In this document: positions 15,482 to 64,000 of the stretch, in pieces
Layout: each line of letters begins with the position of its first letter
Position numbering within the stretch: the first letter of the stretch is position 1
Assembly: GCF_025147485.1 (NCBI RefSeq)
Contig: NZ_CP102263.1
Coordinates: 2,245,501 to 2,309,500, forward strand
DNA from: Bacteroides uniformis
Lineage (GTDB): Bacteria; Bacteroidota; Bacteroidia; Bacteroidales; Bacteroidaceae
DNA length: 64,000 nt
Reading direction: 5' to 3'
Program-made: the position numbers and the translations under genes
Notes under the pieces: model-generated
Told to the model about the DNA's origin: nothing
Database searches by the model: none
Seen by the model: only the letters and a program-made list of their open reading frames with translations

Positions 15482-15556
15482 TTAGGCGCGGAATTCTAAG
15501 ACCTACACAAGTTTTTGCACAGGAAACTTGCGTAGGTCTTAGAATTCCGCGCCTAA
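15482..15556 (+). repeat. Near-perfect 33-bp inverted repeat
   Basis: Arms 15482-15514 and 15524-15556 match with a single A-C mismatch around a 9-nt loop. A T-run precedes the first arm. It lies 49 bp after the mscL stop and contains two EcoRI-type GAATTC sites, one per arm. It may terminate mscL but lacks a clean downstream T-run. Confidence 0.85.
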
Positions 15557-15661
15557 TATTATAACATGATGAAAGCGTTCATGGCTTTTGATACATTCCC
15601 TAATGCATTTAACTCTCCCCGGTACCGCCGGAAACTGTCCCTTTTTATACTAAGCAGTAAT

Positions 15662-15747
15662 CTTACCACAGCCGTGGTAAGAAAATAACATTGCTGTGGT
15701 AAGCAAGTTGCATAGCTGTGGTAAGAAAACAGCACGGTTGTAGTAAG
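15662..15747. repeat. 22-bp-period intergenic array (GTGGTAAG units)
   Basis: GTGGTAAG occurs at 15674, 15696 and 15718 and as GTAGTAAG at 15740, exactly 22 bp apart. Each follows GCYGT or a variant, with about 11 variable bases between. An inverted copy, CTTACCAC, lies at 15662-15669 and makes a palindrome with the first unit. Confidence 0.85.
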
Positions 15748-15894
15748 AATAGCTTTTAGTATCCTTGTGGATAGTTCTAGCCTGAAATTAAAGCTGTTTT
15801 TAGTAAAAAAACGTTTTTCTGTCACATTATCCCTGATAATTCCTTTACTTTTTCTACTTTTGCAAATCATTTATTAAAGTCTATACGGATTTAT

Positions 15895-62113: not shown

Positions 62114-63085
62114 ATGAGCAACAAAATCACAATGCCTTGGGAAGAACGGCCGGCAGGCTGTAAGGATGTAATGTGGCGTTATTCGGAGAATCCCGTAATA
62201 GACCGCTACCATATTCCGTCGTCGAACAGCATTTTCAACAGTGCGGTGGTTCCGTTTAAGGATGGTTATGCCGGTGTGTTCCGTTGTGACAACCGGGCGG
62301 TGCAGATGAATATCTTTGCCGGTTTCAGCAAGGACGGCATCCACTGGGAAATAGAGCATGAGCCAATCAAGTTCAAGGCCGGGAATACGGACATGATAGA
62401 GTCCGAATATAAATACGATCCGCGCGTGACATGGATTGAGGACCGCTACTGGATTACGTGGTGCAACGGCTACTACGGCCCCACCATCGGCATCGGCTAT
62501 ACTTTCGATTTCAAGGAGTTCTTCCAGTGCGAGAATGCTTTCTTGCCTTTCAACCGCAACGGTGTGTTGTTGCCTCAGAAGTTCGATGGCAAATATGCGC
62601 TCTTGAGCCGTCCCAGCGATAGCGGACATACTCCTTTTGGCGACATCTACATTAGCTTCAGCCCTGACATGAAATTCTGGGGCGAACACCGCCATGTGAT
62701 GGCTCCTACGCCTTTCCCCGAAAGTGCCTGGCAGTGTACCAAGATAGGGGCAGGTTCGGTACCGTTCCTCACGGACGAGGGTTGGCTGATGTTCTATCAT
62801 GGCGTGATAACCACTTGTAACGGTTTCCGTTACTCCATGGGAGCAGCTATTCTGGATAAGGACAATCCTGCCAAGTTGCTCTACCGCACCCGTGAGTATC
62901 TGCTTGCGCCTGCTGCTCCTTATGAGTTGCAAGGTGATGTTCCCAACGTGGTGTTCCCTTGCGCAGCGTTGCAAGATGGAGAACGTGTAGCTGTATACTA
63001 CGGTGCAGCCGATACGGTAGTGGGGCTTGCCTTTGGGTATATCCGCGAGATTCTGGAGTTCACGAAGCGCACAAGTATTTTGTAA
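62114..63085 (+). CDS. GH130 4-O-beta-D-mannosyl-N-acetylglucosamine phosphorylase
   Basis: A 323-residue inverting phosphorylase with a five-bladed beta-propeller fold. The N-terminus [42 protein letters not shown], and the catalytic block [13 protein letters not shown] (Asp102) fit GH130. BT1033 of B. theta, a family member in a similar neighbourhood, phosphorolyses Man-beta-1,4-GlcNAc to mannose 1-phosphate and GlcNAc. There is no signal peptide, so it is cytoplasmic, in keeping with the transporter upstream. It completes the pathway for the core disaccharide. Confidence 0.92.
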
Positions 63086-63160
63086 GTACCAAGCAGTTGG
63101 CAGGCGCTCGGTATTGCTGAAAAGCGCCTGCCGTAACTGCTTTATACTTAGTGTAATATC

Positions 63161-63322
63161 ACTGCAAAGATACTGCATGCTTTTTGCAGTGCTACTGCAA
63201 AGCCGTTGCAGCGCCACTGCAAAGCTGATGCAGCGTCACTGCAAAACTGTTGCAGTGCTACTGCAAAGTAGTTTGCAGTGTCACTGCAGACCGTTTGCAA
63301 TAACTTTGCAGAGTGCATGCAA
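63161..63322. repeat. 22-bp-period intergenic array (ACTGCAAA / TTGCAG units)
   Basis: The motif ACTGCA starts at 63172, 63194, 63216, 63238, 63260 and 63283 (steps 22, 22, 22, 22, 23), with an extra copy 11 bp earlier at 63161. Each unit pairs it with an inverted TTGCAG, so the array is an alternation of small dyads. It fills much of the 295-bp gap (63086-63380) ahead of the last GH92; the gap holds no credible gene. Confidence 0.88.
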
Positions 63323-63380
63323 TGACACCGGCATGGGTAGCGTGCTCACTAACTAATAAAGAACAAATCCTTACTATATT

Positions 63381-64000
63381 ATGAAACGACTGATTACTTT
63401 CTGTATCATCTCCTTTGGAATGCTCACGGCATCTATGGCTGCGGAGAAACAGCCGACGGACTATGTGAATCCTTTTATTGGTACCACCAACTTCGGCACT
63501 ACGAATCCGGGAGCCGTCTGTCCCAACGGAATGATGTCCGTAGTGCCCTTCAACGTGATGGGCTCGGAGGACAACAAATACGATAAAGATGCCCGCTGGT
63601 GGTCCACTCCCTATGAGTATCACAATTGTTTCTTCACCGGATATTCGCATGTCAATTTGAGCGGTGTGGGCTGTCCGGAATTGGGCTCTTTGCTGCTGAT
63701 GCCCACTACGGGAGAGCTGTCCGTGGATTACAAGGAGTATGGAAGCCGCTATAAGGACGAGCAGGCATCTCCTGGATATTACAGCAACTTCCTGACTCGC
63801 TACAATGTGAAGACGGAAGTGACGGCAACTCCCCGCACGGGTGTGGCGCGTTTCACTTTTCCTGCAGGACAAAGCCATGTGCTGCTGAACCTGGGCGAAG
63901 GCCTGACTAATGAATCGGGAGCTTTTCTGCGCCGGACGGGTGAGTGCGAGTTTGAAGGTATGAAGCTGCTGGGTACTTTCTGCTACAACCCGCAGGCCGT
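63381..64000 (+). CDS. GH92 alpha-mannosidase, N-terminal part (cut by window end)
   Basis: The frame is open from the ATG at 63381 to the end of the window (206 codons). Signal peptide MKRLITFCIISFGMLTASMA, then TDYVNPFIGTTNFGTTNPGA, CPNGMMSVVPFN, FFTGYSHVNLSGVGCPELGSLLLMPTTG and PGYYSNFLTRYNVKTEVTATPRTGVARFTF, the GH92 N-terminal beta-sandwich. It is the fourth GH92 here and lies downstream of the 22-bp array. Its catalytic half is outside the window. Confidence 0.9.
   Translation, partial: MKRLITFCIISFGMLTASMAAEKQPTDYVNPFIGTTNFGTTNPGAVCPNGMMSVVPFNVMGSEDNKYDKDARWWSTPYEYHNCFFTGYSHVNLSGVGCPELGSLLLMPTTGELSVDYKEYGSRYKDEQASPGYYSNFLTRYNVKTEVTATPRTGVARFTFPAGQSHVLLNLGEGLTNESGAFLRRTGECEFEGMKLLGTFCYNPQA

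Follow-up and report, generated by a model that had tools for sequence, protein, structure and literature searches.

What kind of element is a row of short inverted sequences repeated every 22 bp between two genes of Bacteroides uniformis, and is it recognised as DNA or as RNA? The stretch analysed here (the window, 64,000 nucleotides in full) carries such an array near its right end, where its neighbours are genes for an MFS transporter, a GH130 phosphorylase and a GH92 enzyme. A sequence-only reading had drawn attention to the array and proposed that it might bind a protein, give rise to small hairpin RNA or regulate the mannosidase gene. We tentatively favour, with somewhat less than even confidence, the explanation that it is a dispersed non-coding intergenic element whose cores are bound by a putative protein forming a nucleoprotein patch.

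Anatomy of the array

The periodic ACTGCA array is real. Seven copies start at 63161, 63172, 63194, 63216, 63238, 63260 and 63283, with spacings of 11, 22, 22, 22, 22 and 23 bp, and the last six of them are the copies spaced 22, 22, 22, 22 and 23 bp on which the sequence-only reading was built. The inverted TTGCAG half that it had assigned to each unit is present at five sites (63184, 63206, 63250, 63273 and 63306), but two units deviate, with ATGCAG near 63228 and TTGCAA near 63295. Half-sites ACTGCAAA (F) and TTTGCAGT (R) take turns every 11 bp, and from 63163 to 63318 there are 15 TGCA cores in register, separated by 11-bp steps and a single 12-bp step from 63262 to 63274; an additional TGCA at 63314 lies out of register. 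When the 64-kb window was simulated 200 times with a first-order Markov model, TGCA chains at 10-12 bp spacing reached at most two cores in 183 runs, three in 16 and four in one. Among the 35 TRF rows of the window the array has the top score (period 22, score 117). The features of the locus, together with a second array elsewhere in the window, are the following.

62114..63085, plus strand: GH130 phosphorylase gene, upstream of the array (PF04041, E 3e-68)
63093..63140: sequence able to form a long hairpin, located after GH130 and before the array; by eye it resembles a terminator
63160..63189: left end of the element, CACTGCAAAGATACTGCATGCTTTTTGCAG, with two F cores and then an R core; this F-F-R end type recurs at other loci
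63184..63265, plus strand: left arm, 22-bp units TTGCAGYRNYACTGCAAANNNG in the plus direction
63266..63273: dyad centre, the 8-nt linker AAGTAGTT, equal to the 12-bp core-to-core step, where the units change direction
63274..63322: right arm, which is short, and its degenerate end, which lacks F-F-R; the cores at 63307 and 63318 keep the register
63381..64000, plus strand: GH92 gene, start only, running off the window (PF17678, E 5e-46)
15662..15749, plus strand: second array of the same 22-bp class and another sequence family, CTGTGGTAAG every 22 bp

The 22-bp unit consensus of 59 TGCA units, their cores fixed by the search expression, is TTGCAGYRNYACTGCAWANNNGT, and the linker from F to R is directional (AANNNGT versus ACNNNTT). 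We read the window array as two inverted arms of unequal length around a 12-bp centre, an anatomy absent from the sequence-only reading; its F-F-R end is found on the left side only, and the direction test matched none of the 7-nt linkers of its right arm. The statement that all dyads face the same side of the helix is valid only near 11 bp per turn, a value on which the helical-phase argument depends, and fails at 10.5 bp per turn, where each 11-bp step drifts by about 17 degrees. A repeat of about 11 bp per turn is plausible for supercoiled DNA in cells and is equally that of A-form RNA, 22 bp making up two turns of an A-form helix.

Dispersed copies and other families of the same period

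At least 19 TGCA-array loci are dispersed in the 4.63-Mb single-contig genome, of which the window is G000:C1:2245501-2309500. This number comes from motif searches and may omit more decayed copies; one motif pattern matched exactly 34 times and another 31 times, and the reversed control gave none. Loci contain up to 16 half-sites, down to five and four in the remnants L025 and L029, and the cores are 11 or 12 bp apart at nearly all steps of the 19 loci. A 1.4-Mb stretch (G000:C1:2831500-4248000) is free of TGCA arrays that match a motif exactly; other 22-bp families are present in it (L230-L235).

TGCA-array stretches were also compared from B. muris (G062; 17 stretches) and B. rodentium (G061; at least 13). 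Exactly one 8-nt linker, and with it one 12-bp step, occurs at 12 of the 19 own loci, 13 of the 17 in B. muris and 5 of the 13 listed for B. rodentium; L036 has two. In 12 own arrays the directed linkers number 17 plus and 0 minus to the left of this step and 1 plus and 12 minus to its right (Fisher 1.5e-7), and 14 linkers on the left and 6 on the right are undirected. The corresponding counts are 19 plus and 2 minus against 1 and 12 in B. muris (2e-6), and 4 and 0 against 5 and 6 among the B. rodentium loci listed (p=0.10), it being understood that the counts are not independent, many own and B. muris loci being orthologous.

Many copies also have a recognisable end. The F-F-R arrangement is found at 47 of the 98 ends of 49 loci (both ends at 11 loci, one at 25, none at 13), and ATCAA or ATCAG lies 8-22 bases further out at 25 of the 98; a control stretch of the same length, taken further outward, has it at 0 of 98. 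Recurrent ends and dispersal over at least 19 loci would be in keeping with MITE-like mobile elements, non-autonomous sequences with conserved ends that are moved by a transposase acting in trans and tolerated outside promoters, the repeats being transposase-binding sites; precedent exists in the BrickBuilt element of Porphyromonas gingivalis, as far as the text available from its description goes (PMC4596501). The GH130-GH92 junction fits as well: both genes were present at 25 of 29 other loci fetched, and their spacers, of 8-39 nt at 22 of the 25 and of 90, 138 and 298 nt at one each, show the array to be absent from those 22. These loci are, however, too distant for a clean empty-site junction, and a clean empty site with target duplication was not found; nor was there a transposase among 10 proteins scanned, in a scan that was not systematic, or a Y1 transposase in the genome. 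We regard a mobile origin of this kind as quite unlikely, and the conservation described below bears on it further.

The gene setting of the 19 loci, assigned heuristically with a simple ORF caller, is convergent in 6, co-directional in 12 and divergent in 1. Seven of the 12 co-directional loci lie closer to the downstream start and five closer to the upstream 3' end, and the window array is closer to the downstream start (98 versus 57 bp); the TGCA family does not prefer gene 3' ends. The array is not specific to the mannosidase gene, for which a regulatory role had been suggested, since the 19 or more loci adjoin varied genes and the B. muris ortholog of the window locus (L266), in which the array follows a GH130 remnant consisting of the last 91 codons only, has no GH92 match within its 3.8 kb.

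The period recurs in unrelated sequences. Intergenic autocorrelation over 464 kb of the own genome detected 24 sites at lag 22 and 17 at its harmonic, 44, with no other lag between 10 and 60 exceeding 6, and 400 kb from four other genomes of the genus gave 13 sites at lag 22, 7 at lag 44 and at most 4 elsewhere, about one per 30 kb, with gene calls that are heuristic and some stretches picked because known arrays lie inside them. By eye these arrays belong to many sequence families, at least 10 in the sampled 0.46 Mb. The array at 15662, described beforehand as having the same period and an unrelated sequence, is indeed a member of another family of the 22-bp class: it sits between mscL and guaA, has an inverted copy at its left end (TRF period 22, score 78) and belongs to a family with GTGGTAAG every 22 bp, of which the genome holds more copies. 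Between mscL and this array lies a long inverted repeat, near-perfect by eye (15484-15557), which separates the upstream gene from the array just as the hairpin before the GH92 array does. In one intergenic region (L224:2316-2603) 22-bp arrays follow one another, two or three of different kinds by eye; in the relative G079 a 23-bp unit repeated 19.4 times at 99% identity (L240:8209-8655) forms a young minisatellite, in contrast to the diverged arrays of 22 bp.

Symmetry and placement were surveyed across the class. Of 43 arrays, 18 have a dyad that exceeds shuffles (p<0.05) and 25 do not; in the pooled dyad profile the maximum is at 11.0 bp (0.31 versus about 0), in part a consequence of the period, and for 27 of 40 arrays an inverted 20-mer scores above 12 shuffles. 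Among intergenic regions, an array occupies 12 of the 53 that are convergent, 21 of the 147 co-directional ones and 5 of the 73 divergent ones (divergent versus the rest, p=0.048), a count that covers 38 of 44 arrays, in regions of at least 100 bp. Unlike the TGCA family, the class has 15 of its 21 co-directional arrays closer to the upstream 3' end; the window array is not among the co-directional ones listed.

Like arrays are present in other genomes. Chains of TGCA at 11 bp were present in 17 of 17 genomes, which had been selected for carrying them (reversed control 0), and the strict motif was matched among 61 genomes only in the own genome and in G028. A broader search that requires TGCA returned at least 80 loci, including plain 11-bp tandem repeats of other phyla, which leaves the taxonomic range not firm. 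In other families of the order there was no lag-22 match in 175 kb from four genomes (16 kb of it intergenic), a sample too small for exclusion. The relatives compared belong to the own genus: G179, a member of it, shares a stretch of 2,520 bp with the B. muris record without a difference.

The same junction can carry different arrays. The 298-nt GH130-GH92 spacer (G095) harbours a 22-bp array of another sequence (L198:2256-2359), and upstream of guaA a 22-bp array was found at no fewer than 11 of 29 other mscL-guaA loci, in about five sequence types by eye, none of them the own type; the count is a lower bound, the detector having missed the own array there, and MscL was confirmed at 3 of 3 loci tested. 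Nine of the 10 guaA-locus arrays with the upstream gene in view are closer to that gene and the own array is closer to guaA, with the caveat that ORFs called between array and guaA are possibly spurious. Such observations are compatible with a geometry-defined Bacteroides class, in which the sequence is replaced by lineage or family, the 22-bp rhythm and often the inverted arms are kept, and each family would be read by its own paralogue of a putative filament-forming protein with a role in keeping transcription units apart or in organising the nucleoid. We consider this broader reading possible, if on the doubtful side; the lack of a 3'-end preference in the TGCA family lowered our confidence both in it and in the favoured explanation.

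Core conservation and the choice between DNA and RNA

Eighteen ortholog pairs were aligned. The rate count rests on 13 comparisons at 10 loci, three of which were compared with both relatives, and omits L023/L265, L030/L278 and L036/L287 (poor or one-sided alignment) as well as L038/L285 and L039/L259; a core was scored when either sequence has TGCA, so that sites with TGCA lost in both escape. Substitutions affect 9 of 646 core positions (1.4%), 77 of 730 linker positions (10.5%) and 149 of 1533 positions in the 60-bp flanks (9.7%), and the base adjoining the core changed in 17 of 314 cases in the same 13 comparisons. Cores differ from linkers (Fisher 1.4e-13) and from flanks (1.7e-14), and linkers do not differ from flanks (p=0.55); the counts for B. 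muris alone are 6/487, 61/550 and 133/1173. The cores are conserved in place while the linkers drift, and whole units come and go: array lengths differ between species by 22 (aligned as 2+20), 22, 44 and 44 bp, in addition to 1, 1 and 3 bp, and in the flanks 17 indels were counted, sized 1 to 20, some of which lie where the aligned stretch ends. B. rodentium has exactly one 22-bp unit fewer at the window locus and has kept GH130 and GH92.

Because linkers drift at the rate of the flanks, the constancy of the cores is not explained by units homogenising one another; judging by the substitution counts, what accounts for it is purifying selection on TGCA spaced 11 bp apart. A neutral process, whether tandem duplication or slippage, acting on a palindromic seed would account for unit numbers that shift by 22 or 44 bp between species, but not for cores that evolve seven-fold more slowly, for conserved spacing and shared ends, or for the same lag of 22 in different sequence families. 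This process is highly improbable as an explanation, and for the TGCA family it is, on these counts, contradicted by the core constraint. Random duplication had been put forward as the interpretation should like arrays be absent elsewhere or copies vary freely; arrays of this kind exist in other genomes, and their spacing is conserved between species. The mobile-element reading is affected in a similar manner, as inert resident copies should not show core constraint at orthologous loci. Cores that are kept in place are most simply protein-binding sites one helical turn apart, and of the roles proposed at the outset, binding of a putative protein best fits the evolutionary data.

A different function would be exerted at the level of RNA. 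The arrays could act as rows of hairpins at mRNA 3' ends or between operon genes, stopping the polymerase or protecting the mRNA; the BIMEs of enterobacteria are RNA hairpins of this kind. Placement in the class as a whole is in keeping with such a role, with 15 of 21 co-directional arrays closer to the upstream 3' end and convergent regions the richest, as is the nature of three of the scanned loci, which are SusD-GH3, GH3-GH95 and GH130-GH92 pairs. So are the differing sequence and similar geometry seen at mscL-guaA and GH130-GH92. Predicted folds are strong: the RNA of either strand folds better than its shuffles (z -4.5 and -5.8), which is common for tandem palindromes. Two adjacent core pairs seem compensated (TGTA/TACA). 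Against this stand 14 singly changed cores between two intact cores, which are uncompensated by construction. No terminator-like site is listed at the array: a scan of 63000-63420 for intrinsic terminators with loops of 3-8 found none, and the hairpin at 63093..63140 is not listed by it either. By eye, moreover, arm lengths have no consistent direction relative to genes. Rfam gave nothing over the array above the gathering score, and almost all of its sub-threshold matches concern miRNA families.

Outside the cores, likewise, complementarity does not exceed expectation. For linker b, Watson-Crick mirror pairs number 106 observed versus 127.1 permuted at the outer and 110 versus 110.0 at the inner positions (of 220), and for linker a 100 versus 106.1 at the outer, 34 versus 78.2 at the middle and 29 versus 50.6 at the inner positions (of 193), in counts that pool three species, orthologs included; all five position pairs are at or below expectation. 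Pairing across the array centre amounts to 157 versus an expected 174.5 +- 7.1 (of 342) in the own genome, 142 versus 159.8 (of 297) in B. muris and 42 versus 44.8 (of 90) in B. rodentium. Covariation outside the cores was found neither for local hairpins nor for a long hairpin across the centre, and a pooled test on other families produced no positive signal, its negative z being biased by a choice of phase that maximised the expected value. The shortage of pairing follows from the directionality of the linkers and may reflect avoidance of long perfect palindromes. On balance the pairing data favour recognition of the DNA sequence, the suggested small hairpin RNA draws no support from covariation, and we hold an RNA function to be unlikely.

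Known systems and a putative nucleoprotein patch

In kind, the closest published analogue is the BrickBuilt MITE of P. gingivalis, which, in the accessible part of its description, has 19 intergenic copies of 23-nt tandem units without spacers and of variable number, a leader and a tail that are not repetitive and reach 285 and 318 nt, and defined IS5-like ends such as GAGACCTTTGCA (PMC4596501). On the same partial account, both elements belong to Bacteroidales and share intergenic copies, a near-identical period, variable unit number and defined ends; the TGCA array differs in its period of 22, its 11-bp register and its arms inverted about a 12-bp centre, and no leader or tail is seen. The IS5-like end GAGACC/GGTCTC occurs at 0 of 98 TGCA-array ends (45 bases outward, 30 inward). 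REP and BIME sequences are, in the text available, short extragenic palindromes, often clustered and many of them downstream of genes, with GTAG/CGTC super-families (PMC3733652); the TGCA array resembles them as a short extragenic palindrome and differs, so far as that text goes, in its fixed 22-bp tandem register, and neither GTAG nor CGTC appears in the consensus of the 59 TGCA units, the one family to which this applies. A REP/RAYT system was rejected for want of a Y1 transposase, PF01797 having 0 matches in the own genome and matches in 5 of 14 control genomes.

No description of such arrays in Bacteroides was found in the literature searched, which covered few subscription papers or bioRxiv preprints. 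The accessible text of two B. thetaiotaomicron transcriptome papers does not mention them (PMC7366714; PMC10994844), the second of them gives, in the part available, 1,997 inverted repeats as the yield of an inverton search (PMC10994844), and the 22-bp repeats of another study are, from its accessible part, ICE integration sites (PMC8102008). The array is not CRISPR-like, its linkers being just 7-8 nt long, with no unique spacers of about 30 nt, and its neighbours being the MFS transporter, GH130 and GH92 genes; among the repeat classes tested no named one fits, as the sequence-only reading had held. Five records labelled 'plasmid' match, all from Bacteroides sp. CACC 737, and two of them (L328, L329), with split TonB/SusD genes, look like misassembled chromosome; three 'Bacteriophage sp.' records match, of which the one examined is UNVERIFIED and unannotated. 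No mobility is inferred from these records.

The favoured explanation, that of a protein-bound patch, has a parallel in ParR centromeres, which are arrays of 11-bp sites bound by oligomerising proteins. Sites one turn apart and two blocks are common to both; the TGCA arrays differ in being spread over 19 or more chromosomal loci, and no partition or replication gene was seen among 10 flanking or nearby proteins scanned. Each 22-bp unit would offer two TGCA cores 11 bp apart as binding sites for a putative sequence-specific DNA-binding protein. This protein would line up along the DNA, one half-site per turn and on one face, and so form the nucleoprotein patch. The patch might, with less confidence, most likely act as an insulator between adjacent transcription units, at this locus between the GH130 operon and GH92, or else organise the chromosome, and the other 22-bp families would have proteins of their own that share this geometry. 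That arrays are fewest between divergent genes counted in favour of the patch. The divergent shortage reaches only p=0.048, however, which together with the five-versus-seven placement of the TGCA family argues against the insulation step, and 10 or more sequence families would demand as many proteins, which counts against a protein-based reading, as do the 25 of 43 arrays of the class whose dyad does not exceed shuffles, the strong RNA folds and the two seemingly compensated core pairs.

The core constraint, measured in the TGCA family only, indicates that at least one array family is functional. If the sampled density holds, 22-bp arrays would be a common non-coding feature of a dominant gut genus. 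Their inverted arms could be picked up by software designed for invertible DNA, and some arrays, lying between co-directional genes of the polysaccharide-utilisation type, may set expression ratios.
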